DNA of 40,396 nt from an uncultured Eubacteriales bacterium (GTDB lineage Bacteria > Bacillota > Clostridia > Christensenellales > Aristaeellaceae): NCBI GenBank assembly GCA_902785105.1, contig CACZXF010000042.1, positions 1-40,396 on the forward strand. The letters are read 5' to 3'. Below the pieces are notes generated by a model. It saw only the letters and a program-made list of their open reading frames with translations, did not search any database and was not told the origin of the DNA. Made by a program: the position numbers and the translations under genes. Shown one piece after another: positions 1 through 40,396 of the stretch (within the stretch, counting starts at the first letter, position 1; each line of letters starts with the position of its first letter).

Positions 1-113
1 TTGAGGGCGGGCGCCGAAACGGCGCCCCTACAAGGTAGCGGGAGTCGCTATTAATTTTCAATTGTCAATTGTCAATTTTCAATTCATCTCCCCGACAAAC
101 TTCAATTTATCAC
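1..113 (-). repeat. GC-rich arm/core repeat, cut by window edge, with heptamer insert
   Basis: Bases 1-36 are the inner half of the GC-rich core in reverse orientation (GGGCGCCG/CGGCGCCC hairpin, then CCCCTACAAGG). Bases 51-85 are degenerate TCAATTN heptamers. Bases 86-113 are the constant arm in reverse (CTCCCCGACAAACTTCAATT). A heptamer array therefore lies between core and arm, an arrangement the complete copies do not have. The rest of the element is outside the window. Confidence 0.75.
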
Positions 114-129
114 CCAGACCAAACAAAAC

Positions 130-161
130 GGCAGTCATCGAGTCTCTTCTCAATGACTGCC
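130..161 (-). terminator. Terminator of the DUF1275 gene
   Basis: GGCAGTCAT (130-138) pairs with ATGACTGCC (153-161), and GAG/CTC continues the stem after one mismatch. On the minus strand the hairpin follows the stop codon at 181 and is followed by GTTTTGTTT. It looks like an intrinsic terminator with an imperfect U-tract. Confidence 0.65.
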
Positions 162-180
162 ATGGTATGGCGGCGGCGAA

Positions 181-903
181 TCACCAGCCGTATTTTTTGA
201 AGATGGACTTGAGGCGGCTGCGGCCCTTCCAGCCCATGAGCCAGAAGGAGACAGCCAGCAGGACGCAGCAGACCCAGATGGAGCGCTCGCCCCACCGGGG
301 GCAGAGATTGCCGCCGATGCCCGCGCCGATGGCGAAGGCGACGATGACGCCGAAGTAATACCCGGCGCGCTGGAGGTAGGCCGGGTCGTGGCTCCGGGTG
401 TAGTGGGCCAGGGCGTCCATGGTGCTGCGGATGTTGCCGATGCACATGGTGCTAGCGTAGGCGTAGCCGTGGATCGTGCGGAAGGCCTGCACCTGCATGG
501 CGCAGGTCAGCGATACGATGCAGTTGGCCAGCAGGTTCAGCCCCTGCCCCATAAAGCCCACCGCCAGCAGCAGGGCCGCCTGAACGGCCACCACGATCTG
601 CCGCCAGTGGAGCTTTTCATGTTGGATCTCCGTATACATGTGGATGTGTTCACAGATGAACACGCCCAGCGCGAAGGCCAGCAGCGGGAAGAAATAGCGC
701 CAGCCTTCGGAAAACTCGCCCGTCAGCAGGTGGGTGCTCATCATCACCACGTTGCCCGTCTGCGCGTTGGCGTAGACGTGGCCCCGCACCATATAGGTGT
801 AGGCGTCCTGATATCCGCCGCTGGCCGCCAGCAACATGTTCAGTATGAACGCCTCCGACATCTGCTGCTCCTGGGTCAATGCTTCGCGTATGTCAAAGTG
901 CAT
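181..903 (-). CDS. DUF1275 (YoaK-like) integral membrane protein
   Basis: This 240-residue protein has about six hydrophobic segments and the DUF1275/YoaK pattern: an early GGYQDAYTY motif in the first membrane segment, TGN about 20 residues later, CAMQVQAFR mid-protein and a second GN(I)R motif. The family is a widespread set of small inner-membrane proteins with no settled substrate, so transport is only an inference. The start is placed at the ATG ending at 903 because AGAGG lies about 9 nt upstream; an upstream in-frame ATG would add a tail of non-family sequence derived from repeat DNA. It is a single-gene unit with its own downstream hairpin. Confidence 0.85.
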   Translation of the reverse strand: MHFDIREALTQEQQMSEAFILNMLLAASGGYQDAYTYMVRGHVYANAQTGNVVMMSTHLLTGEFSEGWRYFFPLLAFALGVFICEHIHMYTEIQHEKLHWRQIVVAVQAALLLAVGFMGQGLNLLANCIVSLTCAMQVQAFRTIHGYAYASTMCIGNIRSTMDALAHYTRSHDPAYLQRAGYYFGVIVAFAIGAGIGGNLCPRWGERSIWVCCVLLAVSFWLMGWKGRSRLKSIFKKYGW

Positions 904-968
904 CTTCAAGAAACCTCTTTGAGTGGAATTAGGGAGTAGGCAGATATACAGGGATTTGTTGGGGAGAA

Positions 969-1077
969 ATTTCAAATGGGAAATGGGCAATGTAAAATTG
1001 AGTTACCCGGGAACGCCTGTAATTACAGGGCGGCAGCGACCGTTTCCATTTCCCATTTGGCATTTCCCATTTGAAAC
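969..1077. repeat. Heptamer-arm inverted repeat, AATGGGN dialect
   Basis: A perfect 16-bp inverted repeat, TTTCAAATGGGAAATG (970-985) and its complement (1061-1076), is built of AATGGGN heptamers. The right arm carries extra heptamer units (1043-1060). The interior holds a 14-bp palindrome CCTGTAATTACAGG (1016-1029). It fills the gap between two leftward genes. Confidence 0.8.
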
Positions 1078-1097
1078 TCACCAAAACAAATTACAAT

Positions 1098-2222
1098 TTA
1101 CCTCAGCAGCAGCACGATAAACTGGCTGCACAGCACCACGCTCACCAGCGCTATCGGGTAGGTAGCGGCGTAGGCGGAAGCCACGTCGTCGGTGCCGGCG
1201 ACGGAGATCAGGGTGCCGAGGGCGGGGGTGGAGGTCATGCCGCCGGTGATGGAGCCCAGGTTGTTGAACAGGCTCAGCTTCATCAGCTTGGAGGCGATGA
1301 AGTAACCCACGAACATGGGCACGAGGGTCATCAGCGCGCCGTAGACGAAGAGCATGGGGCCCTCCCGCTGAAGGGTCTCCACGAAGCCCGCGCCGCCGGA
1401 GACACCCGCGCCGATGAGGAACAGCATCAGGCCCAGCTCGCGGAGGGTCTTGAGGATCGGCACGGGGACGGAGATGTCCAGCGGGCCGATGTGGGCGAAG
1501 TGGCCGAACAGCAGGCCCACGATCAGCGGGCCGCCGGTGGTGCCCAGGGAGAACTCCGCGCCGCCGGGCAGGGGGATCTTCACGTTGCCCAGCAGTATGC
1601 CCAGGGCGATGCAGGAGGTCAGGGGGAAGAGGCCGAACTCGTCCAGATGGATCAGCTTGCCCTCATAGGCCTTCAGCTCCACGGTGTTGGCCGCCTCGAA
1701 GCGCTTGCGCTCGGCGTCCAGGTCCACATGCATCAGCTTGGGGACGAGCTGCACGAACAGCACCACGCCCACCACGCCGAAGGGATAGGCGATGGCATAG
1801 CCCGTGGTTGCCAGATCGGACATCTCGCCCGCCGCCTCCTGCGCCGCGGCCAGGCCGGGGGTGGAGGTCAGCGCGCCGGTCATCAGGCCCACGCCCAACT
1901 CCGGACGGATGCCCGCCAGCTTCACGATCAGCGTACAGACCGCCGCGCCGCTGAATATGATGACGAAGCCCAGCAGGATGTACTTGGTGGCGTTGTGCTT
2001 GAAGTCACGGAAGAACTTCGGGCCGGCGATGAAGCCCACCGAGCCCACGAAACAGACCAGTCCAAAGTTGCGCACGATGGCGTCGATCTTGACGCCGAAA
2101 TGGCCGAATACCAGCGCCACCAGCAGCACGCCCGCGGTGCCCAGCTCGATGCCCTTGATCTTGATCGCGCCGATGGCATAGCCGATGGCCGCGATGACGA
2201 AGATAGCCAGTAAGTTGCTCAT
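1098..2222 (-). CDS. AspT/YidE-like membrane carrier (two half repeats, no RCK domain)
   Basis: A 374-residue polytopic membrane protein made of two homologous halves. Each half carries the signature of the aspartate-alanine exchanger (AAE) family: GALTSTPGL at about 116-124 and GGMTSTPALG at about 328-337. Family members usually have about 550 residues, with TrkA_C/RCK domains between the halves. Here the halves are joined by a short charged linker (about 172-200, DLDAERKRFE onward), so the regulatory domain is absent. The ATG at 2222 has AGGAGG 8 nt upstream. It lies 139 nt downstream of metG on the same strand with a heptamer palindrome between. Transport of an organic anion or amino acid is family-based inference and the substrate is unknown. 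Confidence 0.8.
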   Translation of the reverse strand: MSNLLAIFVIAAIGYAIGAIKIKGIELGTAGVLLVALVFGHFGVKIDAIVRNFGLVCFVGSVGFIAGPKFFRDFKHNATKYILLGFVIIFSGAAVCTLIVKLAGIRPELGVGLMTGALTSTPGLAAAQEAAGEMSDLATTGYAIAYPFGVVGVVLFVQLVPKLMHVDLDAERKRFEAANTVELKAYEGKLIHLDEFGLFPLTSCIALGILLGNVKIPLPGGAEFSLGTTGGPLIVGLLFGHFAHIGPLDISVPVPILKTLRELGLMLFLIGAGVSGGAGFVETLQREGPMLFVYGALMTLVPMFVGYFIASKLMKLSLFNNLGSITGGMTSTPALGTLISVAGTDDVASAYAATYPIALVSVVLCSQFIVLLLR

Positions 2223-2269
2223 AGTGATGCCTCCTGAGCAAAGGGTCCTTTGTGTGGGTCGAGGGGGAA

Positions 2270-2358
2270 GTCGGGGAAGGAAGTTGAGTTTGGAGTTGGG
2301 AGTTGTATCGGTTGGAACGGGGATAACACCCCACTCCCCACTTCCAACTCCCCACTCA
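2270..2358. repeat. Heptamer-arm inverted repeat, GGAGTTG dialect
   Basis: The left arm (about 2275-2305) is GGAAGTTGAGTTTGGAGTTG and onward. The right arm (about 2330-2357) is CCCCACTTCCAACTCCCCAC and its continuation. Both are degenerate 7-nt units of the CCCACTT/CCAACTC type, arranged to form a hairpin in the metG-carrier gap. Confidence 0.7.
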
Positions 2359-2361
2359 TAA

Positions 2362-4664: not shown

Positions 4665-4830
4665 TTGAGGGATTTTGGGTGAGATATGGGGAGATTTATC
4701 GAAGAGTGGAGAGTGAAGAGTGGAGAGTGGAGTTATCAGTGCAGAAACCCCATAAAATCTATGAAATCCAAAGGATTTCCATCAAAACTCCACTCTTCAC
4801 TCTCCACTCTCAAATCCCCGACCCCATTTC
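4665..4830. repeat. Heptamer-arm inverted repeat, GAGTGGA dialect
   Basis: A perfect 23-bp inverted repeat: 4703-4725 (AGAGTGGAGAGTGAAGAGTG plus GAG) and its complement at 4788-4810. The interior contains AAATCC-AAA-GGATTT (about 4764-4778), a short hairpin core also present at 13298 and 25511. Outside the arms, GGGGAGATTTATCG (about 4688-4701) and CAAATCCCCG (4811-4820) resemble the constant arms of the GC-rich element family. Confidence 0.85.
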
Positions 4831-5642: not shown

Positions 5643-7396
5643 AAAAGAGCAGTGTGCTGATACGGCGCGCGGCTCTCTTCACGGCAACCGTGATGGCTGT
5701 CACGGTTGCCGTCAGTTTGTGCGGCTATGGCATTGCAACGTGGATACAGTCCCGCGCCGCCGCAAAGAATCAAATCACAGGCCAATTGGCTTATCTCGTG
5801 GAGCTGACGGATAAGATGAGCGACGCCGCGCGGCTGAAGGACGCCGCCGCGGCCCTCGCGTCCACCGGCTCCATGGTCTGGTATGCCGACGGCGACGGGG
5901 ACATGGAATGCCTCACCGGCGACCTGCCCGCCCCCCAGCCCGGCTATTATAAGGACGAGGGCAAACACTGGTACTGCGCCGACGCCGACCTGGGCGGAGG
6001 CGAGGACCGGGAATACCTGGGCAAGATCGCCGTGGCCGCGCCGCTGAAAATGCCGTCGTGGCTGGGCTTTCTGCCCGTGGGAGGGCTTGCCGCGCTGCTG
6101 GGCTTCATCGCCGCGCGTCTGGTGCTGAGCCATCAGAAGCGGCTGGAGGCGCTGATGCAGGCCCAGTCGGAGAGCATCGCCCGCCTGCGGGATGACGCCG
6201 TGGCCATGGCCGACGGCCATCTGGAGACCCGCGCCGACGAAAAGGCCGAGGGCGAGCTGGGCGAGCTGGGAAGGGCGCTGAACCACCTGTCCGACCAGTT
6301 GAGCCGCAACATGTACACACTCATCGTGGAGCGCAACCGACTGCGCAACATGCTGAACGGTTTGTCCGAGGGCATCGTGGCCGTCAACGCCGAGGGCCGG
6401 GTCACCCACACCAACCCCGCGCTGGGGCGGCTCGTGCCCCGTGCCAAGTCCGGCCAGCACTTCGCCGACGCGCGGATGAAGACCATCCCCGACGAGACCA
6501 TCTGGGCGGACTTCGACAAGGTCATCGCCAGCGGCGAGTCCCTCACCCGGAACTTTGAATCGAGGGACATGATACTGCGGATGACGGTGACACCCATCGT
6601 GGACGAGATCGACGTCATCGCCGGCGCCGTGGGCCTGTTCTCAGACATCACGCAGATGGAGCGCTTGGAGAAGACCCGGCGGGACTACGTCTCCAACGTC
6701 AACCACGAGCTGCGCACGCCGCTGACCGCCATGCGGGCGCTGATCGAACCCCTCAAGGAGGGCATGGTCACCGAGGAGGCCGACCGGCAGCGCTATTATG
6801 ACATCATCCTCCGGGAGATCATGCGCCTGTCGCGGCTCATCAACGACCAATTGGAGCTGTCGAGGCTCCAGTCCGGCACGCTGTCCATCGAGAAGTCGAG
6901 GATGGCGCTGGACGACCTGGTCTACGACGTCTGCGACCGCTACACCGCCATCGCCAGGGAACATAAGCTTGAACTCAGGATCGACACCGATTTCAGCGCC
7001 TGCCCGCCGGTCTACGCCAACGCCGACCGGGTGGAGCAGATGCTCATCATACTACTGGACAACGCCATCAAGTACACCGAGGAGGGCTGGGTGGCCGTGT
7101 CCGCCACATGGGATGTGGAAAAGGTGGTCGTCACCGTCCGCGATACCGGCATCGGCATCGAGGAAAACGACCTGCCCTATGTATTCGACCGCTTCTATAA
7201 AGTCGATAAGGCCCACAGCGGCAAGGGCAGCGGCCTCGGCCTCTCCATCGCCAGGGAGCTTTTGAAGCGCATGGACGAGGACATCTGGGTCGAAAGCGAA
7301 AAGGGCAAGGGAACGGCGTTCTCGTTTACCATTCATCGGTATACGGAACAGCAGAGGCCCGCGGAGGATGACGACTCCCTCAGTCAGCTTCGCTGA
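5639..7396 (+). CDS. PhoR-like sensor histidine kinase
   Basis: A 585-residue membrane kinase paired with the response regulator. It has an N-terminal membrane segment (about 11-35), a short extracytoplasmic domain (36-135), a second membrane segment (about 140-160), a HAMP-like region, a PAS-like domain (about 240-340), and a HisKA domain with phospho-acceptor His356 (VNHELRTPLT). The HATPase domain follows, with N-box LLDNAIKYT, DTGIGI, the FYK F-box and GKGSGLGLSI. The overlapping start couples its translation to the regulator. The last seven codons (DSLSQLR) and the stop lie inside a CTCCCTC palindrome, so the extreme C-terminus is repeat-encoded and follows a normal HATPase end (FSFTIHRY). 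Confidence 0.95.
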   Translation: MKKSSVLIRRAALFTATVMAVTVAVSLCGYGIATWIQSRAAAKNQITGQLAYLVELTDKMSDAARLKDAAAALASTGSMVWYADGDGDMECLTGDLPAPQPGYYKDEGKHWYCADADLGGGEDREYLGKIAVAAPLKMPSWLGFLPVGGLAALLGFIAARLVLSHQKRLEALMQAQSESIARLRDDAVAMADGHLETRADEKAEGELGELGRALNHLSDQLSRNMYTLIVERNRLRNMLNGLSEGIVAVNAEGRVTHTNPALGRLVPRAKSGQHFADARMKTIPDETIWADFDKVIASGESLTRNFESRDMILRMTVTPIVDEIDVIAGAVGLFSDITQMERLEKTRRDYVSNVNHELRTPLTAMRALIEPLKEGMVTEEADRQRYYDIILREIMRLSRLINDQLELSRLQSGTLSIEKSRMALDDLVYDVCDRYTAIAREHKLELRIDTDFSACPPVYANADRVEQMLIILLDNAIKYTEEGWVAVSATWDVEKVVVTVRDTGIGIEENDLPYVFDRFYKVDKAHSGKGSGLGLSIARELLKRMDEDIWVESEKGKGTAFSFTIHRYTEQQRPAEDDDSLSQLR

Positions 7397-7485
7397 CAGC
7401 TCCCTCTGGGAGGGAGCCTTAAGACGGTCCCCCAAAAGGCTCCCTCCCAGAGGGAGCTGTCACGCGGAGCGTGACTGAGGGAGTC
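7373..7485. repeat. CTCCCTC palindromic repeat (solo copy)
   Basis: GACTCCCTCAGTC (7373-7385) is the exact complement of GACTGAGGGAGTC (7473-7485). Inside are TCAGCTTCGCTGA-type hairpins and a second pair, CTCCCTCTGGGAGGGAG and CTCCCTCCCAGAGGGAG. The whole can fold as a long hairpin. The same core occurs inside the composite element at 35853-36029. Here it overlaps the end of the kinase gene. Confidence 0.85.
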
Positions 7486-8924: not shown

Positions 8925-9075
8925 TATAAGTTGGGATTTATCGGGAAGTCAAACCAACCTTGTAGGGGCGCCGTTTCGGCGCCCGCCCCTGCGAGATGGC
9001 GTGTTCTGTCGGGCGGGCGGCGAAACGCCGCCCCTACAGGAGAGCGGGTAACACTTCGATAAATCTCCACTTATT
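8925..9075 (+). repeat. GC-rich arm/core palindromic repeat
   Basis: The left arm is a variant (AAGTTGGGATTTATCGGGAA). The core runs from TTGTAGGGGCGCCG with hairpin GGGCGCCG-TTT-CGGCGCCC and a second hairpin GGGCGGCG-AAA-CGCCGCCC, closing with CCCCTACAGGAGAG. The right arm is TTCGATAAATCTCC. It lies between two convergent genes. Confidence 0.9.
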
Positions 9076-9533: not shown

Positions 9534-9686
9534 GATAAATTGGAAGTTGTCGGAGAGACGAACCAACCTTGTAGGGGCGCCGTTTCGGCGCCCGCCCCCT
9601 GCGAAACGGTACGTTCTACCGGGCGGGCGGCGCAACGCCCCCCTACAGGAGAGCGGGCAACTCCCTGATAATTCCCTGTTTATCGA
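9534..9686 (+). repeat. GC-rich arm/core palindromic repeat
   Basis: Left arm GATAAATTGGAAGTTGTCGG, full two-hairpin core (the second hairpin has lost one base, CAACGCCCCCCTAC), right arm CTCCCTGATAATTCCCTG then TTTATCGA. It sits between the DtxR-type gene and the FeoB-associated gene, both leftward. Confidence 0.9.
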
Positions 9687-9905: not shown

Positions 9906-10090
9906 ATTTGGAGTTGGAAGTGTAGAGTGGGAAGTTGGAAGTGACACAGGTTCCACTCCCAGCGATGCAAATGTCTATGCGAAATGTTGTACAGGGCGGG
10001 CGGCGAAACGCCGCCCCTACAGGGTTGTCGGGAAGCCGGAAGGTTTCGTCCCCAACTCCCCACTTCCCACTTCCCACTCCCAACTCAAAT
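9906..10090. repeat. Heptamer-arm inverted repeat enclosing half a GC-rich core
   Basis: The arms are units of the GGAAGTT/GGAGTTG type: 9906-9942 (starting ATTTGGAGTTGGAAGTGT) and 10050-10090 (ending CCCACTCCCAACTCAAAT). Between them, 9989-10024 is just the second hairpin of the GC-rich core (GGGCGGCG-AAA-CGCCGCCC then CTACAGG). One family is therefore nested inside the other. Confidence 0.8.
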
Positions 10091-12453: not shown

Positions 12454-12477
12454 GTCGTGCCTCCCGATTTTTGCTCA

Positions 12478-12682
12478 ATTTGTAACCGTTCAGTCCAGCA
12501 GGCAAATTGGAATTTTTCAGGGAGTCAAACCGACCCTGTAGGGGCGCCGTTTCGGCGCCCGCCCTCCTGCGTGACGGTACGTTCTAATGGGCGGGCGGCG
12601 CAACGCCGCCCCTACAGGAAAGCGGGAAACTCCCCCACGAATCCCCGTTTACATGGAAAGGACCGAATAATTATCTCAATTT
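12478..12682 (+). repeat. GC-rich arm/core repeat with extended terminal inverted repeats
   Basis: The arms and core run 12503-12656. Outside them, TGTAACCGTTCAGTCC (12481-12496) is an imperfect inverted copy of the sequence beyond the right arm (GGACCGAATAATTATCTCAA, reading from about 12659). The outer right sequence matches that of the copy at 17336 (GGGCTGAACAGTTACCTCAA). The family therefore has a longer form with about 20-nt outer inverted repeats. Confidence 0.85.
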
Positions 12683-13241: not shown

Positions 13242-13378
13242 AAATTGGGATTTGTTAGAGAGTGGAGTGTGGAGAGTGAAGAGTGGAGTTTTGGTGGAAA
13301 TCCTCCGGATTTCATTGATTTATGGATACCCGGCACTCTTATCTTCACTCTCCACTCTTCGACAAATCCCTGTTTACC
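13242..13378. repeat. Composite repeat: constant arms around a heptamer palindrome
   Basis: The outer left GAAATTGGGATTTGTTAGAG (about 13241-13260) and right CGACAAATCCCTGTTTACC (about 13360-13378) are the constant arms of the GC-rich family. Between them are GAGTGGA-type heptamers (13259-13288, and 13342-13359 in reverse) around an AAATCC-TCC-GGATTT core (about 13298-13312). The same arms thus carry a completely different interior. Confidence 0.85.
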
Positions 13379-14029: not shown

Positions 14030-14178
14030 AAAATTGGAATTTGTTGGGGAATCAAACCAACCCTGTAGGGGCGCCGTTTCGGCGCCCGCCCTCAACGAAA
14101 CGCATTGTCCTACCCGGCGGGCGGCGCAACGCCGCCCCTACAGGAGAGAGGGTAACTCCCCGATAAATCCCTGTTTAC
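14030..14178 (+). repeat. GC-rich arm/core palindromic repeat
   Basis: A complete copy: left arm AAATTGGAATTTGTTGGGGA, core TGTAGGGGCGCCGTTTCGGC onward with both hairpins, right arm CTCCCCGATAAATCCCTG then TTTAC. It lies between two leftward genes, 14 nt from the stop of the ArsC/Spx-like gene. Confidence 0.92.
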
Positions 14179-14592: not shown

Positions 14593-14673
14593 ACTGTAGG
14601 GGCGCCGTTTCGGCGCCCGCCCTGCGCGTTGCGATACGTCGTACCCGGCGGGCGGCGAAACGCCGCCCCTACG
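14593..14673 (+). repeat. GC-rich core only (no arms)
   Basis: TGTAGGGGCGCCG-TTT-CGGCGCCC and GGGCGGCG-AAA-CGCCGCCCCTAC are present, but the constant arms are not recognisable on either side. TCAATTN-like heptamers follow at about 14702-14728. The gap 14537-14854 otherwise holds only the mgtC promoter. Confidence 0.85.
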
Positions 14674-17335: not shown

Positions 17336-17519
17336 TATAAATTGGAATTTGTAGGGGAGTCAAACCAACCTTGTAGGGGCGCCGTTTCGGCGCCCGCCCC
17401 TAACGAAACGCATCGTCCTACCCGGCGGGCGGTGGGACCGCTCCCAGCGGCCCCTACAGGAGAGGCGGTATTTCCCTGATAAATCCCCGTTTATCGAAAG
17501 GGCTGAACAGTTACCTCAA
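17336..17519 (+). repeat. GC-rich arm/core repeat, extended form with altered second hairpin
   Basis: The left arm (AAATTGGAATTTGTAGGGGA) and first hairpin are canonical. The second hairpin is changed to GGGCGGTGGGACCGCTCCCAGCGGCCCC. Right arm CCCTGATAAATCCCCG, then TTTATCGAAAGGGCTGAACA and TTACCTCAA, the outer extension shared with the copy at 12478. Confidence 0.9.
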
Positions 17520-21614: not shown

Positions 21615-21715
21615 GCCTATTGGTTCAATTATTACAGCTGAAAGCTCCAAAAAAGGGGTTTATCGGGCTGCAAACCGTGCCCGTCAAGTTTCAATTCTAA
21701 ATTTTCAATACCCCA

Positions 21716-21998: not shown

Positions 21999-22128
21999 TG
22001 ATAAACGGGGATTTATCGGGGAGATGCCTACTCTCCTGTAGGGGCGGCGTTGCGCCGCCCGCCGGGTATGACGATGCGTTTCGTTAGGGGCGGGCGCCGA
22101 AACGGCCTCGACAAATTCCAATTTGTCA
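21999..22128 (-). repeat. GC-rich arm/core repeat with deletion in the first hairpin
   Basis: Reverse orientation: TGATAAACGGGGATTTATCG arm, second hairpin GGGCGGCG-TTG-CGCCGCCC, then GGGCGCCGAAACGG followed at once by the CTCGACAAATTCCAATTTGTC arm. Half of the first hairpin and the adjacent conserved stretch are missing. It lies between convergent rubredoxin and argS. Confidence 0.9.
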
Positions 22129-23979: not shown

Positions 23980-24130
23980 CAGATTGGAATTTGTCTGGGA
24001 GTCAAGCCGACCTTGTAGGGGCGCTGTTTCGGCGCCCGCCTTGTACGAAGCGCACCGTCCTACCCGGCGGGCGGCGCAACGCCGCCCCTACAGGAGAGTG
24101 CGCATCTTCCCTACAAATCCCCGTCCATCA
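23980..24130 (+). repeat. GC-rich arm/core repeat overlapping a stop codon
   Basis: Left arm GATTGGAATTTGTCTGGGAG, both core hairpins, right arm CCTACAAATCCCCGTCCATCA. The last bases TCA (24128-24130) are the TGA stop of the leftward deacetylase gene, corresponding to the TGATAAACGGGG end of other copies. Confidence 0.9.
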
Positions 24131-25402: not shown

Positions 25403-25475
25403 AATTTACCTCCTGATGATTGTCAGGTTGCTTTGGTTGGAGTAAAATGTTACGAGAGTGTAATCTTTTTGAATA

Positions 25476-25625
25476 GGGAATGGGAAATGGGCAATGGGAA
25501 ATTGTGGCGCAAATCCTTACGGATTTGTCTGATTAAAAAGAACACGCGCGGGAGTTCATTTTTTATAAAAGAAATCCGAAGAATTTCATCATACATTTCC
25601 CATTCCCCATTTCCCATTCCCCATT
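25476..25625. repeat. Heptamer-arm inverted repeat, AATGGGN dialect with AAATCC core
   Basis: The left arm 25476-25503 (AATGGGA/AATGGGC units) matches the right arm 25594-25625 in reverse at 26 of 27 positions over its length. Inside are AAATCCTTACGGATTT (25511-25526) and AAATCCGAAGAATTT (25572-25586), related to the cores of the GAGTGGA-armed elements at 4665 and 13242. It fills much of the 444-nt gap before the BIG2 gene; the rest is AT-rich and holds that gene's promoter. Confidence 0.85.
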
Positions 25626-25846: not shown

Positions 25847-28800
25847 ATGAAACGTTGGTTTACCGCAGCGCTCGCGCTTGTTATGACCTTCTCATCCACG
25901 CCGGCCGGCATGATGGCCGCCAGAGCGGAGGAATCGGCCCTGGAGGCATACGTCCCGGAGGCGGAGGGTCTGACGCTCGGAGATGAGGAAACGGCGGAGG
26001 AATCCGCCGCGCCGCTGCGGGAAACCCCTGATGAGGCGACGGAGGAGGTCATTGAGCTCGAGGAGAGCGAGGCCGTTGAATCCGAAGCCGTGGAGGCCGA
26101 ACTGGCCTCGGCGGCCCAGCCCACCAGCATCAAATTAAACTTCACCTCGGGCACCATCGGCGTCGGGGAGACCTTCAACGGCCTTTTCGTGATCGCCAGC
26201 CCGGAAGGCGCTTCCACGGAGGTCACCTGGACCTCCAGCAAGACCAAGGTGGTCCAGGTGGACCCCGTGACCGGCGCGCTCACCGGCATCAAGACCGGCT
26301 CTGCCACCATCACCGCCACCACCCCAAATGGCAAGAAGGCCACCTGCAAGGTCAAGGTCAAGAAGGGGCCCACGTCCATCACCGTCAGCCCCTCTTCCAT
26401 GAAGCTGGGCTACGGCGGCGTCAGCAGCCGGCTCGGCCTCAAGTTCTCCAGCGGCTCCGCGTGCAGCACGGTCTACTTCACCTCCAGCGATCCCGGCGTT
26501 GCCACCGTGGACGCCTACGGCACGGTGACCTCCGTGGGCAGCGGCACCGCCGTCATCACCGCCACTGCCTACAACGGCGTCAGCGATTCCTGCGAGGTGA
26601 CCGTCCTCGGCGCGCCCGCCAGCCTCGTCTTTGAAAAGAGCACCCTGAACGTGGGCGCGGGTCAGACCGCTACCCTTGAGGCTCAGGCCTACGACAGATC
26701 CGGCAATCCCGCCGAGACCGGCGTCACCTACAGCCTCGTCTCCGCCAGCCCCAGGGGCTGCGTCAGCGTCAGCGCCGACGGCAAGGTCAAAGCCTCCGCC
26801 TCCGGCACCGCCGTGGTGCGCGGCACCACTGCCAACGGGCTGACCGCCACCTGCAATGTGGCCGTGGTGGCCATGCCGGTCGCCATCAAGTTGAACCAGA
26901 GCACCGGCATGCTGGCTGTCGGTGAGACCTACACGGGCCTCACCGCCACGCTGATCTCCTCCGACGGCAGCGACTCCGCCGGCGAGGTCATCTGGACCTC
27001 CAGCAAGCCGAAGATCGTCTATGTGGACGAGGACACCGGCGCGCTGACCGCCCTCAAGACCGGCACCGCCGTGATCACCGCCCAGACCTCAGGCGGTCTC
27101 AAGGACACCTGCAAGGTCACCGTCAAGAAGGCGCCCACCAGCATCTCCCTCTCCCCCGAAACGCTGAAGCTCAGCGCGGGCGGCATGAGCCAGGAGCTGG
27201 GTGTAATCCTCTCCAAGAACAGCGCCCTGGGCGGGCTGAGCTTCACCTCCAGCAACACGAACGTCGCGCGGGTGAACAGCGACGGCATCGTCACCTCCGT
27301 GGGCGAGGGCACCGCGGTCATCACCGCCACCACCTTCAACGGCAAGACCGCGAAGTGCACCGTCACCGTGGCCGGTGAGCCGGCCAGCGTGGTGATGGAC
27401 CACACCGCCATCTCCGTGGGCATGGGCGACAAGGGCAGCGTCAGCGCCACCCCGCTCACCGCCTCCGGCAATGTGGCCGGCACCAATCTCACCTATTACA
27501 TCGAATCCAATTCGCCCAATCCGGGCTGCATCAAGCTGGACGCGGACACCGGCGCGGTCACCGCAGTCTCCGGCGGCACGGCCTACGTCAACGTCAGGAC
27601 CCACAACGGCATCACCGCCGCCCAGTCCTGCGTGGTGACGGTGACCGCCAAGCCCAAGGCCCTGTCCCTGCCCTCCAAGCTCACCGTGGGCGTGGGGGAC
27701 ACGCTGGAGGCGCTGGAGGCCGTGCTGACCTTCCAGGACGGCACCACCGGCCCCGCCACGGGCCTGACCTGGTCCAGCAGCAATAAGAAGGTCGTGGCCG
27801 TGGACGCGGCCACCGGCACGCTCACCGCCCTCAAGAAGGGCACCGCCACCATCACCGCCAAGACCTCCGGCGGCCTGAAGGACACCTGCAAGATCACCGT
27901 CAGCGCCGCGCCCACCGGCCTCACCCTGAGCCCCTCCGCCGTGAAGCTCAGCGCCGGCGGCATGAAGTTCCAGTTGGCGGCAAATGTCACCGGCGTCAGC
28001 GCCGCGGACGTGAGCTTCTCCTCCAGCAATCCCGCCGTGGCCACCGTCAGCAATGACGGCGTGATCACCACCGTGAGCGCGGGCAAGGCCACCATCACCG
28101 GAAAGACCTACAACGGCAAGACCGCCACCTGCGCGGTCACCGTCACCAGTGTACCGGCGAAGGCCAGCTTCAGCACCACCCAGATGACGCTGGGCACCGA
28201 CGAGACCGTCATCCCCGACGTCAAGGTCCAGGCGGCGGACGGCAGCGAAGCCGTGGCCGATCTGAACTTCCGCATCCTGGCGGGTCCCCAGTACATCAGC
28301 CTGAACAGCGCCACCGGCGAGATCACCGCCAAGGAAGCCGGCACCGCCGTGGTGGGCGTCAGCACCCACAATGGCGTCAGCGCCAGCAACACCTGCACCA
28401 TCACCGTCGTGGCCGAGGCCACCGACATCTCCCTGAGCCAGACCAGCGCCAGCCTGGGCGCGGGCGAGATCGTCCAGCTCAAGGCCAGGGTGAAGGCCGT
28501 CAAGGGCGCGAACACCGGCGTGAGCTGGTCCTCCTCCAACACCAAGGTGGCGAAGGTCAGCGCGGCCGGCGTGGTCACCGCCGTGGCGGCGGGCAGCGCC
28601 ACCATCACCGCCCAGACTGCCAACGGCCTCAAGGCCACCTGCAAGGTGACGGTCTACAAGGCTCCCACCTCCATCTCCCTGAGCCCGGCCAGCGGCTCCG
28701 TGTACGTGGGCGAGGCCGGCCAGTACGTGGTCAAGGTGTCCAGCGGCGCGGGCGGGTATGTCAGCTTCACCAGCAGCGATCCCGACATCGCCGAGGTGGA

Positions 28801-29368
28801 CGACGAGGGCGTCGTCGTCGGCATCTATCCCGGCACCGTCACCATCACCGCCACCACCTACAACGGCAAGAAGGCCACCGCCAAGCTGACCGTCAAGCGC
28901 CGCTCCACCTCCACGCCGTCCTATGACGATTACGGCGACGACGAGCCCAGCGGCGGCGATTACGAGTACGACGAGACCATCGAGCGCGTCATCGCCCTGG
29001 CCGAAAGTCAGCTCGGCAAGCCCTACAAGTCCAAGGGCGGCTACAAGGATTCCAATCCCAGCGGCTTCGATTGCAGCGGCCTGGTTTACTGGTGCTACTA
29101 TCAGGTGGGCATCAAGCTGGGCGACAGCCCCTCCAAGCAGGCCAACGACAGCAAGTACACCCGGATCGACAGCATCAGCGACCTGCAGCGCGGCGACGTG
29201 GTCTGCTTCAAGAGCGATTCCTCCAGCAGCGTCAGCCACACCGGCATCTACCGCGGCGACGGCGAGTTCATCCACGCCTCCTCCGCCGGCAAGGCCGTCA
29301 TCATCACCGACATCAACAAGGATTATTACTCCCGCAACTTCGTCTGCGGCCGCAGGATCATCGAGTGA
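25847..29368 (+). CDS. Secreted BIG2-repeat NlpC/P60 cell-wall hydrolase
   Basis: A 1173-residue exported protein. It has a signal peptide (1-27, MKRWFTAALALVMTFSSTPA), an acidic region (28-90), eleven BIG2 Ig-like domains of about 80-90 residues (about 92-1010, each ending in a GTAxITAxTxNG-type strand and a CxVTV strand), an Asp/Ser/Tyr linker (about 1015-1042) and an NlpC/P60 domain (1043-1173). The catalytic residues are visible: Cys1076 (FDCSG), His1131 (SHTG) and His1143 (FIHAS), which fit an endopeptidase cutting peptidoglycan stem peptides. The BIG2 domains fall in a repeating A-B-C order. The SD is GGAGG 11 nt upstream. It is monocistronic, with promoter and terminator. Confidence 0.94.
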   Translation: MKRWFTAALALVMTFSSTPAGMMAARAEESALEAYVPEAEGLTLGDEETAEESAAPLRETPDEATEEVIELEESEAVESEAVEAELASAAQPTSIKLNFTSGTIGVGETFNGLFVIASPEGASTEVTWTSSKTKVVQVDPVTGALTGIKTGSATITATTPNGKKATCKVKVKKGPTSITVSPSSMKLGYGGVSSRLGLKFSSGSACSTVYFTSSDPGVATVDAYGTVTSVGSGTAVITATAYNGVSDSCEVTVLGAPASLVFEKSTLNVGAGQTATLEAQAYDRSGNPAETGVTYSLVSASPRGCVSVSADGKVKASASGTAVVRGTTANGLTATCNVAVVAMPVAIKLNQSTGMLAVGETYTGLTATLISSDGSDSAGEVIWTSSKPKIVYVDEDTGALTALKTGTAVITAQTSGGLKDTCKVTVKKAPTSISLSPETLKLSAGGMSQELGVILSKNSALGGLSFTSSNTNVARVNSDGIVTSVGEGTAVITATTFNGKTAKCTVTVAGEPASVVMDHTAISVGMGDKGSVSATPLTASGNVAGTNLTYYIESNSPNPGCIKLDADTGAVTAVSGGTAYVNVRTHNGITAAQSCVVTVTAKPKALSLPSKLTVGVGDTLEALEAVLTFQDGTTGPATGLTWSSSNKKVVAVDAATGTLTALKKGTATITAKTSGGLKDTCKITVSAAPTGLTLSPSAVKLSAGGMKFQLAANVTGVSAADVSFSSSNPAVATVSNDGVITTVSAGKATITGKTYNGKTATCAVTVTSVPAKASFSTTQMTLGTDETVIPDVKVQAADGSEAVADLNFRILAGPQYISLNSATGEITAKEAGTAVVGVSTHNGVSASNTCTITVVAEATDISLSQTSASLGAGEIVQLKARVKAVKGANTGVSWSSSNTKVAKVSAAGVVTAVAAGSATITAQTANGLKATCKVTVYKAPTSISLSPASGSVYVGEAGQYVVKVSSGAGGYVSFTSSDPDIAEVDDEGVVVGIYPGTVTITATTYNGKKATAKLTVKRRSTSTPSYDDYGDDEPSGGDYEYDETIERVIALAESQLGKPYKSKGGYKDSNPSGFDCSGLVYWCYYQVGIKLGDSPSKQANDSKYTRIDSISDLQRGDVVCFKSDSSSSVSHTGIYRGDGEFIHASSAGKAVIITDINKDYYSRNFVCGRRIIE

Positions 29369-29421: not shown

Positions 29422-29575
29422 TATAAAACAGGGATTTTTCGGGGAGATACACACTCTCCTGTAGGGGCGGCGTTGCGCCGCCCGCCGGGTAGGACAATTC
29501 GTTTCGTTGGGGGCGGGCGCCGAAACGGCGCCCCTACAAGGTTGGTTTGACTCCCTGACAGATTCCAATTTATCA
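29422..29575 (-). repeat. GC-rich arm/core palindromic repeat
   Basis: A complete copy in reverse orientation: AAACAGGGATTTTTCGGGGA arm, both hairpins, AAGGTTGGTTTGACTCCCTG and ACAGATTCCAATTTATC. It starts 11 nt after the BIG2 gene terminator. The 361-nt gap otherwise contains only the next promoter. Confidence 0.93.
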
Positions 29576-30061: not shown

Positions 30062-30189
30062 TGATAAACAGGGATTTGTCGGGGAGTTGCCCGCTCTCCT
30101 GTAGGGGCGGCGTTGCGCCGCCCGCCGGGCAGGACGATGCGTTTCGTTAGAGGCGGGCGCCTTTTCAGCTCGATAAATTCCAATTTACC
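30062..30189 (-). repeat. GC-rich arm/core repeat, first hairpin truncated
   Basis: TGATAAACAGGGATTTGTCG arm, second hairpin complete, then GGCGGGCGCCTTTTCAGCTC where the first hairpin should continue, and the CGATAAATTCCAATTTACC arm. The truncation is similar in place to that of the copy at 21999 but differs in sequence. Confidence 0.88.
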
Positions 30190-33054: not shown

Positions 33055-33207
33055 CGATAAATTGGAATTTGTCGGGGAGTCAAACCAACCTTGTAGGGGC
33101 GCCGTTTCGGCGCCCGCCCCCAACGAAACGCATCGTCATACCCGGCGGGCGGCGCAACGCCGCCCCTACAGGAGAGTAGGCATCTCCCCGATAAATCCCC
33201 ATTTGTC
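33055..33207 (+). repeat. GC-rich arm/core palindromic repeat, consensus-like copy
   Basis: GATAAATTGGAATTTGTCGG arm, both hairpins, CATCTCCCCGATAAATCCCC arm and TTTGTC. This copy appears intact. Its right end (TTTGTC) overlaps the -35 box used for polA. The 314-nt gap 32948-33261 otherwise shows only a short TCGCCG/CGGCGA hairpin near 32965-32984. Confidence 0.93.
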
Positions 33208-35852: not shown

Positions 35853-36029
35853 GAAAAATTGGAATTTGTCGGGGAGACGACTCCCTCCGACCCGCTTCGC
35901 GGGCCACCTCCCTCTAAGAGGGAGGCTTTTGGAAAACGCCGGTAACCAAAAGGCTCCCTCTCTGAGGGAGCTGTCACCGAAGGTGACTGAGGGAGTCGTC
36001 CCCCTTTTCCCGACAAATCCCCGTTTACC
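35853..36029 (+). repeat. Composite repeat: constant arms around a CTCCCTC palindrome
   Basis: Left arm AAAAATTGGAATTTGTCGGG, then GAGACGACTCCCTCCGACCC to GACTGAGGGAGTCGTC (the CTCCCTC core, 35876-36001, same family as 7373-7485), then right arm CCCGACAAATCCCCGTTTACC. The arms are those of the GC-rich family but the core is different. Confidence 0.92.
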
Positions 36030-36992: not shown

Positions 36993-36995
36993 TGG

Positions 36996-37132
36996 CAAAA
37001 TGGAATTTATCAGGGAGACAACCAACCTTGTAGGGGCGCCGTTTCGGCGCCCGCCCTCAACGAAACGCATCGTCCTACCCGGCGGGCGGCGCAACGCCGC
37101 CCCTACAGGAGTGCAGGAAGCTCCCCGAAAAC
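36996..37132 (+). repeat. GC-rich arm/core palindromic repeat, short right arm
   Basis: Left arm AAAATGGAATTTATCAGGGA, complete two-hairpin core, right arm reduced to AGCTCCCCGAAAACC. It lies between two rightward genes. Confidence 0.9.
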
Positions 37133-37195: not shown

Positions 37196-37244
37196 GGATG
37201 TATAGCGTCCGAAAAACTTCGGGCAAGGAGAAGGAGTGATGCAC

Positions 37245-37670: not shown

Positions 37671-37681
37671 CCCTTTATAAT

Positions 37682-37720
37682 ACAGCAGGGGCGCCGTTTC
37701 GGCGCCCCTGCTGTCTTTTA
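37682..37720. terminator. Bidirectional terminator made from a single GC-rich repeat hairpin
   Basis: ACAGCAGGGGCGCCG-TTT-CGGCGCCCCTGCTGT is a perfect 15-bp hairpin followed by CTTTTA, between convergent PPC and dipeptidase genes. The centre GGGGCGCCGTTTCGGCGCCC is identical to the first hairpin of the repeat core, so a solo hairpin seems to have been kept as a terminator. Confidence 0.85.
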
Positions 37721-38626: not shown

Positions 38627-38651
38627 TTTTATCGTTCTCCTTTGATTTGAA

Positions 38652-38680
38652 TTGAAAAACTGAACCGGGTATGTTATGAT
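38652..38680 (+). promoter_or_regulatory. Promoter of the TtcA-like gene
   Basis: TTGAAA (38652-38657), 17-nt spacer, TATGAT (38675-38680). It lies 196 nt before the start codon, with a whole GC-rich repeat in between. Confidence 0.7.
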
Positions 38681-38696
38681 GGGGCGTGAGACGGGA

Positions 38697-38852
38697 CGAC
38701 AAATTGGAAGTTGTCGAGCAGTCAAACCAACCTTGTAGGGGCGCCGTTTCGGCGCCCGCCCCCCCCCTGCGAAACAGCGCGATCTAACGGGCGGGCGGCG
38801 CAACGCCGCCCCTACAGGAGAGCGGGCAACTCCCCTACAAATCCCTGTTTAT
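38697..38852 (+). repeat. GC-rich arm/core repeat in the TtcA-like leader
   Basis: Left arm CGACAAATTGGAAGTTGTCG, first hairpin, a run of ten Cs (CGCCCGCCCCCCCCCTGCG, a slippage-prone site), second hairpin, right arm CTCCCCTACAAATCCCTG then TTTATA. It lies between promoter and start codon of the following gene and should be in its 5' untranslated RNA. Confidence 0.9.
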
Positions 38853-38875
38853 AAAACCGAAGGGAGCACCACACT

Positions 38876-39697
38876 ATGGCGCGGGAGCTGAACTACATTG
38901 AAGCGATGGAGCGGGACCTGCTGACGGAGCGTCGAAAGGCGATCTGGCGGCCCTTTGTGAACGCCGTGCGGGAGTATCAATTGATCTGTCCCGGCGACCG
39001 GGTGGCGGTCTGCGTGTCAGGCGGGAAGGACTCGCTGCTGCTGGCGGTGCTGATGCGGATGCTGCAAAAGCACTCCAAGGTGCCCTTTGACGCGAAGTGG
39101 CTGGTGATGGACCCCGGCTATCTGCCGGAGCACCGCAAGACCGTGGAGGCCACCGCTGCGCGACTTGGCATCGAATATACGCTGATCGAATCGGACGTTT
39201 TCGAGGCCGCGACCATCCGCCCGGACAATCCCTGCTTCATGTGCGCCCGCATGCGCCGGGGCTGTCTCTACCGCCATGCGCAGGCGCTGGGCTGCAATAA
39301 GCTGGCGCTGGGCCACCATTACGATGACGTCATCGAGACCACGCTGATGGCCATGCTCTATGGCGGTCAAATTCAGGCCATGCCGCCGAAGCTCCACGCG
39401 AAAAACTACCCCGGCATGGAGGTCATACGCCCCCTCTACCGGGTCCGCGAGGCGGACATCATCGCCTGGCGGGACGCCTACGCCCTCGCTTGCCTCCAGT
39501 GCGCCTGCTCCATGGCCCGCCGCCCTGAGGATTCCGCACGACAGTCCGTCAAGACCCTCATCAGAACCCTCGCGGAGGCCAACCCCAAGGTCCCCGTCAA
39601 CATATTCAACAGCATCCACACCGTCCAGCTCGATACGCTGGTGGGGTGGAAGTACAGAGGGGAGGAGCATTCCTTCCTTGACGATTACGATGCTTGA
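38876..39697 (+). CDS. TtcA-family tRNA 2-thiolation ATPase
   Basis: A 273-residue PP-loop ATPase. SGGKDS (48-53) binds ATP. C120 and C123 (PCFMCARMRRG) and C206/C209/C211 (ACLQCACS) match the cysteine pattern that holds the 4Fe-4S cluster in TtcA enzymes, which add sulfur to a tRNA cytidine or uridine. GHHYDDVIETTLM and a C-terminal WKY are family features. The exact target base cannot be told from sequence. RBS AAGGGAG 10 nt upstream. The leader contains a repeat. Confidence 0.9.
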   Translation: MARELNYIEAMERDLLTERRKAIWRPFVNAVREYQLICPGDRVAVCVSGGKDSLLLAVLMRMLQKHSKVPFDAKWLVMDPGYLPEHRKTVEATAARLGIEYTLIESDVFEAATIRPDNPCFMCARMRRGCLYRHAQALGCNKLALGHHYDDVIETTLMAMLYGGQIQAMPPKLHAKNYPGMEVIRPLYRVREADIIAWRDAYALACLQCACSMARRPEDSARQSVKTLIRTLAEANPKVPVNIFNSIHTVQLDTLVGWKYRGEEHSFLDDYDA

Positions 39698-39702
39698 ATA
39701 GT

Positions 39703-39807
39703 TCGACAAATTGGAATTTGTTGTGCTGATAAACTATCCCCTGTAGGGGCGCCGTTTCGGCGCCCGCCCTTAACGAAACGCATCGTACTACCCGGCGGGC
39801 GGCGCAA
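39703..39807 (+). repeat. Truncated GC-rich repeat forming the end of a coding sequence
   Basis: Left arm GACAAATTGGAATTTGTTG, an inserted CTGATAAACTATCCC, the first hairpin, the conserved AACGAAACGCATCG stretch and the start of the second hairpin (CGGCGGGCGGCGCAA). It then stops abruptly at the coding sequence of the leftward gene (AGGTTGGCAATC). Its right half and arm are missing. Confidence 0.9.
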
Positions 39808-40258
39808 GGTTGGCAATCACCGCCACCGCCGCGCCAAGCAGGGCGCCGACCAGCACCTGGCGGCGGGTGTGGCCCACGAATTCCTTGAGCGTCTCTTCGG
39901 GGGTCAGGTCGCCGCGGCCCATGGAGTCAAAGAGCTCCAGCATGCTGTTGATGACCTTCGCCTGCTTGCCGGTCTCCTGGCGGACGCCCATGGCGTCGTG
40001 CATCACCACCAGCGCCATGATGGCCGCCACGGCGAACAGCGGCGAGTCCCAGCCCACAATCATCCCCGTGGACGCCGCCACCGCCGTCACCGTGGCGGAA
40101 TGGCTGCTGGGCATGCCGCCGTCGCCAAACAACCGCTCCCAGTCCAGCCGCCGGTTGATGATCATGTAGATGATCAGCTTCAGCCCCTGGGAAACCACCC
40201 AGGACGCGCAGCCGGTCAGCAGTATTCGGTTGTGAAGGATGTCCAGAAGGGAAGTCAT
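39788..40258 (-). CDS. Divergent PAP2 (DUF212-like) membrane phosphatase-family protein
   Basis: A 156-residue membrane protein with about four helices. LFGDGGMPSSHSATVTAV (44-61) is the family mark and corresponds to the SxSxH phosphatase motif, and MHDAMGVRQETGKQA holds the second conserved region. It is likely to act on a lipid phosphate, but the substrate is unknown. The last codons (LAPPAG) and the stop TAG are encoded by the truncated repeat at 39703-39807, so the natural C-terminus has been replaced. RBS AAAAGGAG. Confidence 0.88.
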   Translation of the reverse strand: MTSLLDILHNRILLTGCASWVVSQGLKLIIYMIINRRLDWERLFGDGGMPSSHSATVTAVAASTGMIVGWDSPLFAVAAIMALVVMHDAMGVRQETGKQAKVINSMLELFDSMGRGDLTPEETLKEFVGHTRRQVLVGALLGAAVAVIANLAPPAG

Positions 40259-40294
40259 GGGCGGCAGCTCCTTTTATGGCGTAGTTGGCTTATG

Positions 40295-40396
40295 TGCAAA
40301 TTGGAATTTGGCGGGGTGACGGGGATTCACCTCATCCGGCGCTTCGGTGCCGCGCCTCAAATCTTCGATTTGAGCCGTGGCAGTCTGGCCTTTGGC
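40295..40396 (+). repeat. Composite repeat with a third core, cut by window end
   Basis: Left arm CAAATTGGAATTTGGCGGGG, then GATTCACCTCATCCGGCGCT and CAAATCTTCGATTTGAGCC, which include a TCAAATC-TTC-GATTTGA hairpin. The core matches neither the two-hairpin GC core nor the CTCCCTC palindrome. The far arm lies outside the window. Confidence 0.7.

Follow-up and report, generated by a model that had tools for sequence, protein, structure and literature searches.

Palindromic elements with common arms and differing cores in a Clostridia-like draft genome, some copies with marks of IS66-family insertion

Hundreds of tiny noncoding elements with common ends and differing, hairpin-rich cores are present in a Clostridia-like draft genome (92% complete, 131 pieces). 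The family looks like a variant of known mobile DNA, in that some copies carry the insertion marks of the IS66 family. We favor, with some reserve, the reading that these are IS66-type miniature elements into which other repeats were packaged a few times, the composites then being amplified as units. The full form would consist of an 8-bp duplication, the outer repeat GTAACTRTTCAGTC, about 8 bp, an A or B hairpin arm, a core, and the mirror image of these parts. The arms would be the subterminal part of the shell, and the cores would be other palindromic repeat families that are also free-living in the genus. Cores would have entered the shell a few times, either by insertion of palindrome into palindrome or by recombination between copies, and a transposase supplied in trans would subsequently have multiplied each composite as a whole.

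Composition of the element family

The arm sequence occurred 476 times in the genome at up to 3 mismatches, and its reversed control occurred 0 times. Moreover, 223 arms were found in 421,508 bp versus 2 after base shuffling, and at a stricter threshold 392 arms were found in 813,675 bp versus 5 in the shuffle control. The arm similarity asserted in the initial annotation was thus upheld. Within the 813,675 bp, 148 arm pairs enclosed palindromic cores of five or more kinds, the count being drawn from 44 stretches (~24% of the genome) selected partly for exact arm matches, which skews densities upward. Arm pairs of less than 700 bp were accepted, and those printed span 47 to 376 bp. Cores were classed by short motifs, which left 10 of the 148 pairs as "other," at least 4 of them shorter than 60 bp, and the same arms surround cores of classes R (GC core), D (CACCTCATCC), C (CTCCCTC), T (heptamer palindrome), and G. 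The arm consensus of R copies is identical to that of D copies over the first 22 bases. A heptamer was mistaken for the A arm by the finder in several R+T pairs (e.g., L007 16602, L112 9858, and L119 4737), and the R+T arm consensus is therefore unsound. The armless R rows in L004, L103, and L104 are coding matches as judged by eye, and several armless D rows resemble copies whose arms have decayed.

Two unlike and polar arm types were distinguished, A (GATAAATTGGAATTTGTCGGGG) and B (GATAAACAGGGATTTGTCGGGG), and each arm forms a short palindrome (GACAAAT-TGGA-ATTTGTC). The arrangement is A..B in 127 of the 148 pairs, and a fold-back origin, in which one arm would be a copy of the other, was set aside because the arms of those pairs differ in type. 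As in BOX-type elements, fixed end modules enclose variable inner modules (five or more core classes across 148 pairs), and as in MITEs, an internal transposase gene is absent, the elements being, by their length, too short to encode one. Rfam at gathering thresholds gave 0 matches in the window (the whole stretch of DNA analyzed, 40,396 nucleotides), and a cobalamin riboswitch was the sole match in 120 kb of other stretches. No match was returned from viral contigs searched with an exact 19-mer of the arm or from plasmids and phages searched with one R element.

With an arm matrix, 15 pairs of convergent arms were located in the window, along with 5 arms that have no partner. Eleven pairs have an R core, including 22003-22124 and 30066-30186, each with one hairpin shortened; the remainder comprise one CTCCCTC core, one heptamer palindrome, one heptamer-like palindrome, and one near-empty pair of 48 bp. 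The roughly 17 sites of the initial annotation hold full or partial copies, as described to within a few bases, and the same arms were indeed seen around GC, CTCCCTC (35856-36026), and heptamer (13242-13375) cores. The third core that it reported, at 40295, is a class D core interrupted by the window end; the CTCCCTC core that it placed alone at 7373 was found without arms at 7377-7481; and the armless GC cores that it mentioned are located, as cores or halves, at 9978-10020, 14596-14672, and 37679-37713. The A/B polarity of the arms, the outer repeat beyond them (12482-12674), and the palindrome at 946-1099 did not figure in that annotation.

Features of the window:
1-109, minus strand: partial element at the contig start, with an A-type arm (89-108), a heptamer array, and part of an R core
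946-1099, minus strand: arm pair, heptamer-like (AAATGGG) palindrome
7377-7481, unstranded: class C core, armless
8928-9072, plus strand: arm pair, R core
9537-9681, plus strand: arm pair, R core; GTTCAGTC of the left outer repeat retained upstream
9978-10020, unstranded: half R core, armless
12474-12481, unstranded: left copy, CTCAATTT, of an 8-bp target site duplication, exact match to 12675-12682
12482-12674, plus strand: complete putative IS66-type miniature element, with outer repeat (GTAACCGTTCAGTC, 12482-12495), A arm, R (GTAG hairpin) core, B arm, and outer repeat (GACCGAATAATTAT, 12661-12674); arms at 12504-12650
12675-12682, unstranded: right copy, CTCAATTT, of the 8-bp target site duplication
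13242-13375, plus strand: arm pair, heptamer (AGTGGAG) palindrome, class T
14031-14176, plus strand: arm pair, R core
14596-14672, unstranded: R core, armless
17339-17514, plus strand: arm pair (17339-17492), R core, and right outer repeat (17501-17514); the right R hairpin contains an additional 18-bp palindrome
21650-21697, unstranded: 48-bp arm pair, nearly coreless, probably a remnant
22003-22124, minus strand: arm pair, truncated R core
23981-24126, plus strand: arm pair, R core
29426-29571, minus strand: arm pair, R core
30066-30186, minus strand: arm pair, R core with one truncated hairpin
33059-33204, plus strand: arm pair, R core, upstream of polA
35856-36026, plus strand: arm pair, class C (CTCCCTC) core
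36997-37127, plus strand: A arm and R core, decayed right arm (right end approximate)
37679-37713, unstranded: single R hairpin, armless, in a terminator-like position after a gene
38701-38850, plus strand: arm pair, R core
39708-39807, plus strand: A arm and R core, right side truncated
40298-40396, plus strand: A arm and start of a class D core, interrupted by the window end

Outer repeat, target duplication, and IS66 loci

The outer repeat, which flanks some copies outside the arms, was first spotted in the sequence of a related genome, G001, and afterwards tested in the present genome, G000. It matched 19 of 296 flanks at 11 or more of 14 positions, versus 0.9 in shuffles; at 10 or more of 14 it matched 40 flanks, 32 of which place it 22 to 23 bp outside the arm. 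An outer repeat on each side, at 9 or more of 14 positions, was found in 18 pairs, of which 8 have an 8-bp duplication at no more than one mismatch, 4 of them exact, and the mispaired control gave 0/306. Exact 8-bp duplications were also read from the printed gaps of G001 (CTCAATTC and TCTGAAAG) and G007 (CCTTTGGC and GTGGGAAG), and G007 has two D-type copies with an exact 8-bp duplication at the outer repeat and a third with a shared 8-mer, identified by eye. Shared 8-mers occurred in 6 of 28 R copies with an outer repeat versus 0.4 expected.

The majority of copies in this genome have no outer repeat. The R copies (n = 62) carry both in 14 cases, one in 12, and none in 36, and arm scores are close (26.4 for R with none, 28.8 for R with both, and 27.2 for D with none). 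Copies of this kind have hairpin arms, no clear duplication, and no strongly conserved adjoining target: a shared 8-mer was present in 3 of the 69 D-like copies, with 1.1 expected, and in 1 of the 42 R copies, with 0.9 expected, shared 7-mers were mildly raised in D-like copies (10 versus 5.0), and flank complementarity beyond the arms of D-like copies was not above composition. Direct repeats of 4 to 12 bp at offsets 0 to 29 were at most barely above mispaired controls among the 76 pairs of the first sample.

Some IS66 genes of relatives are accompanied by the outer repeat. Among 200 genomes of the family, ten loci were at least 59% identical to an IS66 fragment of G006, and at nine of these ten closest loci GTAACTRTTCAGTC, at no more than 1 mismatch, adjoins the gene at one end. 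The remaining locus, at a contig end in G001, has no such repeat, and at none of the ten was it seen at both ends, in a scan that permitted 3 mismatches and left weaker matches in some loci uncounted. Pfam family PF03050 was matched in both of the repeat-bearing loci scanned, and at three loci, of which two belong to G006 and one to G018, the end runs on as CCCCGAATAAT, resembling the start of the arm. Three further full-length IS66 loci, in G009, G020, and G017, have no such end, apart from one weak match inside the G020 open reading frame. The sole PF03050 trace in the present 92%-complete draft is a 73-aa remnant; an intact IS66 gene of this clade was not found there, and the G006 protein was unmatched. 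No transposase family was matched among 29 window open reading frames scanned with Pfam. That the enzyme acts in trans rather than being encoded by the element, as proposed in the initial annotation, is supported by the outer repeat and duplications and by the repeat at IS66 loci of relatives. We infer that an IS66-type enzyme moved the elements and that the numerous copies without an outer repeat derive from the same process.

It is possible, though we think it rather unlikely, that the arms are instead the true ends of a second mobile unit, one that would leave no target duplication and be moved by a putative enzyme reading the arm hairpins, the outer repeat being a shell around some copies only. 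The palindromic nature of each arm fits such a unit, and so do the D copies: their ends are sharp (GAYAAAT..RTC) and their flanks almost random, 0 of 51 have both outer repeats (6 have one), those of G000 have no duplication of 2 to 9 bp at a fixed offset, and their arms are about as conserved as those of R copies. However, the outer repeat stands at a short and nearly equal distance from the arm in G000, G001, and G007, the continuation at the three IS66 loci is much like the arm start, and the D flanks have weak T, T, G, and T columns at -15, -14, -11, and -10, the position expected of the outer repeat. Moreover, no candidate enzyme is at hand, as the 24 sister-genome Y1 loci, among 45 matches listed, had no arm pair.

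Arms, cores, and the extent of exchange

Of the 28 genomes available for the genus, 27 contain both main core hairpins. The arm of the present genome is rare or absent in most of the 28, the pattern searched being this genome's version, which altered arms elsewhere escape; single matches in other genomes mean little because the reversed control also matches once in G009, G021, and others. The arm differs between species, with TTGGA here and TTCTG in G007, G009, and G017. In G000, one end of the D core lies beside the arm in 115 of 117 classable arm contexts, and the opposite end does so in G007 (11 of 12 contexts) and G009 (6 of 6). Relative to G000, the D core is inside-out in those two species, which speaks for independent packaging. 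R cores have the same half beside the A arm in 52 of 57 cases (the other half in 1, not assignable in 4), with junctions of 14 bp in 51/58 and 15 bp in 50/58. Nearly constant junctions and core orientation speak for few packaging events, and we infer that packaging preceded amplification.

The initial annotation described a two-part system in which arms and cores move or recombine separately. Its modular aspect stands, given the shared arms, the unlike cores, the armless cores, and an arm-core unit found inserted into another palindrome in G001. Free and continual exchange is not supported, because orientation, junctions, and arm polarity hardly vary within each core class in G000. Such exchange, by recombination or gene conversion between copies, is improbable in our estimate, even though the R and D arm consensus is identical while arms differ between species. 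Sixteen variable arm sites were compared, and 9 of them show no difference in frequency between the R and the D copies, for instance a T/G variant with 46:10 and 36:8 and an A/G variant with 37:25 and 28:15, so that exchange to some extent is possible; the other 7 differ (p < 0.01). Four orthologous gaps, selected for the presence of an element in G000, were also compared. Twelve of 20 sister gaps were empty and 8 had palindromes, no arm-core unit was common to different genomes, and the same ends with a different core were found at none of the four. Turnover of elements was thus evident at these gaps, and the core replacement that the annotation had set beside clean insertion was not seen.

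We consider it equally improbable that the arms are a packaging shell that took in several unlike palindromes, independently in different species and in opposite registers, and that would spread by a new hairpin-reading process with neither terminal repeat nor duplication. Still harder to sustain is retention for function, as terminators or mRNA hairpins, with mobility secondary. Element midpoints fell within crude gene proxies, defined as longest-ORF guesses, in 38 of 148 cases versus 7,549 of 8,800 random points, and the lone R hairpin at 37679-37713 is placed like a terminator, but selection against gene damage also predicts intergenic position, elements occupy tandem, convergent, and divergent gaps alike, and they turn over at orthologous gaps.

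Y1 transposases and known systems

A REP-associated tyrosine transposase or an IS200/IS605 relative, which the initial annotation had suggested as a source of mobility, was supported neither by the genome search nor by the Y1 loci of sisters. PF01797 had no match in this genome and is present in 16 of 28 genus genomes; one of the 24 loci without an arm pair, L142, has a single outer repeat plus an arm nearby. GGGGAC[GA]G motifs occurred in 20 of 20 fetched long Y1 loci of sisters and the exact R hairpin start TGTAGGGGCGG in 0 of 20, with matches in 11 of 20, all only at up to 2 mismatches. IS200/IS605 elements make no duplication, have subterminal hairpins, and insert beside a fixed short target, and to our knowledge an 8-bp duplication is out of keeping with RAYT or IS200/IS605 enzymes. 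R cores do start with GTAG and form inverted, head-to-head pairs, as in REPINs, but the shell is not REP/RAYT-like, and we see very little chance that the family consists of REPs or REPINs served by such an enzyme.

Small palindromic repeats occupy gaps in many bacterial genomes, and the present case bears on the origin of new families. If the elements are packaged IS66-type miniatures, one genus would display the steps together: palindromes on their own, palindromes in an IS66-type shell, nested insertion, and amplified composites. A known transposase family would be linked to dispersed hairpins, and comparison of strains would allow a test of how composite repeats arise. The elements may also account for the frequent contig ends of drafts in this genus.

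The literature searched, mostly at the abstract level and with PMC10969869 included, held no description recognized as this family. As outlined in part of PMC3733652, GTAG-tagged REPs and REPINs likewise combine GTAG with a GC hairpin in inverted pairs; in contrast to those served by RAYT, no Y1 transposase was found in the present genome, and none was tied to R cores at 20 sister loci. The arms contain GGGGWGA, loosely resembling the GGGGWSAS ends given there for TIRtrons, and TIRYT-type Y1 genes are seemingly present in the genus (PMC3733652, in part), but the Y1 loci examined own GGGGAC[GA]G palindromes rather than arm pairs. The heptanucleotide repeat elements of Geobacter metallireducens are summarized in PMC2700814 as dispersed, multicopy tandem 7-mers between and within genes; the arrays here differ in being inverted pairs of many different 7-mers that are able to act as cores. 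BOX elements of Streptococcus pneumoniae and S. suis are likewise modular and palindromic, and according to sections of PMC3049150, S. suis BOX has two kinds of ends around the same inner boxB modules and pneumococcal repeats apparently insert into one another. Compared by that description, one kind of end here surrounds several unlike inner families, and an IS66-like outer repeat and heptamer arrays take part. Finally, ISDge4 (IS66 family, ISBst12 group) is described in part of PMC12898284 as observed to transpose, with GTGACTACTCAGCA and GTAACTGCTCAGCA as its ends and a direct repeat of 8 bp. Like that group and MITEs, the present elements combine an 8-bp duplication with a terminal repeat resembling GTAACTGCTCAG (PMC12898284, in part), and like nonautonomous IS66 derivatives, they have no room for a transposase gene and would depend on an enzyme acting in trans. 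Unlike them, they keep the terminal repeat in a minority of copies, and their interior is a changing set of palindromes behind an arm present in hundreds of copies.

Arms and the cores between them

The window opens contig 42 of the draft genome G000, which comprises 3.44 Mb in 131 contigs. A polA protein search returned nine public records, the two closest being rumen and duodenum Clostridia MAGs (81% and 78% identity). The arm AAATTGGAATTTGTCGGGGA had 476 matches across G000 (≤3 mismatches), and the reversed arm sequence, used as a control, had none. At least one match was found in 11 of 24 other genus genomes (39 in G001, 25 in G009, 19 in G007, 13 in G017, 10 in G015, and 1 to 3 in the remaining six), and many of these were changed arms. 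When 44 stretches of G000 (813,675 bp, window included) were scanned with a matrix, 392 arms were detected, versus 5 in shuffled sequence; they formed 148 pairs in convergent orientation and left 96 arms unpaired. The arms were of two unlike types, A (GATAAATTGGAATTTGTCGGGG) and B (GATAAACAGGGATTTGTCGGGG), and the pairs were A..B in 127 cases, A..A in 6, and B..B in 6, with one or both arms not assignable in 9.

The 148 pairs enclosed cores of class R (a GTAG hairpin pair; 62), D (CACCTCATCC; 51), R with heptamers (8), C (CTCCCTC/CTCTCAGTC; 6), heptamers alone, class T (5), and G (a palindrome of 287 to 376 bp; 4), as well as 2 mixed and 10 unclassified cores. The initial annotation had claimed that the same arms surround different cores, and this was borne out: the A..B arm consensus was identical over 22 bases for R (n = 55) and D (n = 44), and those of T (n = 5), C (n = 4), and G (n = 3) were similar, with few copies behind each. 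Rfam gave no match for the G cores of L002 and L005.

Class G cores in fetched stretches, each with the same arms and GGACCATAGGTCC-like motifs
L002 1560-1846
L005 3469-3817
L105 3840-4201
L110 11304-11679

Junctions were regular. The GCC half of the R core lay beside the A arm in 52 of 57 copies and the other half in 1, with 4 left unassigned; R junctions measured 14 bp in 51/58 and 15 bp in 50/58, and D junctions 9 to 12 bp in 43/48 and 12 to 13 bp in 41/48. The R and D classes each look descended from one or a few composites. An 18-bp palindrome, TGGGACCGCTCCCAGCGG, also recurs within one hairpin of several R cores.

R cores with TGGGACCGCTCCCAGCGG
Window 17339-17492
L013 17518
L015 3236
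L016 8205 and 12594

Tandem 7-mer arrays were a further feature of G000: among periods 4 to 15 scanned in the 813,675 bp, period 7 gave 88 arrays, periods 4, 5, 6, 9, 12, and 15 gave 1 to 32, and periods 8, 10, 11, 13, and 14 gave none. The 7-mer sequences vary widely within and between species and many form matched inverted arrays, such that both sides of a palindrome must change together.

Example arrays and other features
Window 2329-2356, 4700-4815, 10049-10076, 25470-25620: tandem 7-mer arrays
Window 25847-29368: protein of 1173 aa containing an NLPC_P60 domain and eight Big_2 stretches
L016 16699-16877: cobalamin riboswitch

Proposed packaging and exchange, and cores without arms

In G000, CACCTCATC adjoined the arm in 115 of 117 D-classed arm contexts, whereas the opposite D end (CCAAAAGCCTTCC) did so in 11/12 contexts of G007 and 6/6 of G009, counts in which the unit is the arm, so that one element may count twice, and which cover contexts classable as D. 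Because the opposite core end adjoins the arm there, the D core is enclosed inside-out in other species, and it sits between those species' own version of the arm. When R and D copies were compared at 16 variable arm sites, 9 were alike (including A9 T/G and B4 A/G) and 7 differed (A6, A8, A12, A19, B12, B18, and B19; P < 0.01). The arm sites fit a few packaging events, followed by some of the arm-core exchange proposed initially, better than they fit free reassortment.

The orthologous-gap comparison proposed in the initial annotation was made at four gaps of L016 that hold a G000 element, against G001, G003, G004, G006, and G011. Of 20 sister gaps, 12 were empty and 8 held palindromes. In none of the four gaps did two genomes have the same arm-core unit. 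One gap had the same heptamer palindrome in G004 and G006, and another had a heptamer palindrome in both G000 and G001 with different 7-mers.

Cores also occurred without arms. R and D hairpin patterns were each found in 27 of 28 genus genomes, including genomes with no arm-pattern match (e.g., G010, G011, and G016). G006 had 289 D hairpins versus 3 arm matches; at the thresholds used, neither arm nor outer repeat matched at any of 20 fetched G006 D loci, and one, L195, bore decayed traces by eye. At one position of the G006 D core (L183 to L202), 17 different hairpins appeared in 27 occurrences, 15 of the 17 with a perfect stem of at least 4 bp and sequences unlike one another, as if whole hairpins were swapped or corrected to perfection. 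The gap upstream of polA (L021) contained palindromes of C, REP-like, and heptamer type, and inspection by eye showed no arms there. Motif pairs more than 110 bp from any arm in G000 numbered 35/117 for R (some being coding matches by eye, in L004, L103, and L104), 13/63 for D (several resembling decayed-arm copies), and 11/16 for C. A lone R hairpin at window 37679-37713 directly follows a PCC-domain gene and is terminator-like in look.

Outer repeat and candidate enzymes

In sister genomes a further repeat, GTAACTRTTCAGTC, encloses the arms. In G000 it matched at ≥11/14 positions in 19 of 296 flanks versus 0.9 expected, and it lay 22 to 23 bp from the arm in 32 of 40 flanks with ≥10/14 matches. 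An 8-bp direct repeat (≤1 mismatch) stood just outside 8 of 18 pairs with both outer repeats and was exact in 4, among them CTCAATTT around the window element 12482-12674; mispaired controls gave 0/306. Exact 8-bp duplications were likewise present at two G001 units (by eye) and at the outer repeat in G007 L048 and L174; a third G001 unit, within the loop of a heptamer palindrome, had a one-mismatch duplication, and ATAGAATG was common to both sides of G007 L171 (both by eye). Six other G007/G009 pairs tested had no exact duplication.

Class R had both outer repeats in 14 of 62 copies, one in 12, and none in 36; class D had both in 0 of 51 and one in 6. Arm scores were close (26.4 without outer repeat, 28.8 with both, and 27.2 for D without), and therefore simple ageing does not explain loss of the outer repeat. 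Copies without it showed no direct repeats at a constant offset. In these copies, 8-mers common to both flanks occurred near chance level, 7-mers common to both flanks were mildly elevated in the D-like ones (10 versus 5.0), and only weak columns persisted at the expected repeat position.

Hallmarks of the IS66 family are ends that begin with GTAA and duplications of 8 bp. One member, ISDge4, was observed transposing, with ends GTGACTACTCAGCA and GTAACTGCTCAGCA and an 8-bp repeat (PMC12898284). PF03050 matched in 10 of 28 genus genomes, 9 above the cutoff. The repeat GTAACTRTTCAGTCYACCCCGAATAAT adjoined a PF03050 gene in both G006 and G018. When the G006 IS66 fragment was searched against 200 genomes of the family, 15 matched; among ten loci with ≥59% identity, the repeat (≤1 mismatch) lay beside the gene in nine, and the tenth was at a contig end. 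A single end with the repeat was observed at each of the nine, and three other full-length IS66 genes showed no such end. The PF03050 search of G000 itself found a short remnant only. Several draft contigs of G001, G009, G015, and G017 end within ~200 bp of an arm; these elements thus interrupt assembly and might conceal an autonomous copy.

The REP-associated transposase suggested initially was not supported: PF01797 had no match in G000 and matched in 16 of 28 genus genomes, where no arm pair was present at 24 Y1 loci examined among 45 matches listed, and no exact R hairpin start at 20 fetched long loci. An outer repeat and arm do lie beside a Y1 gene with its own palindromes at L142 2329-2366 (G007).

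Comparison with known systems

All 20 fetched long Y1 loci of sister genomes (L123 to L142) had GGGGAC[GA]G palindromes near the gene, which recall the TIRYT type and fit TIRtron/TIRYT (PMC3733652). For the arms and cores, the nearest published modular case found is that of BOX elements: the BOX of S. suis has the same inner module within different ends, and in pneumococcus one repeat seems able to insert into another (PMC3049150). We judge the present elements to be miniature transposons that carry a changing palindromic cargo.
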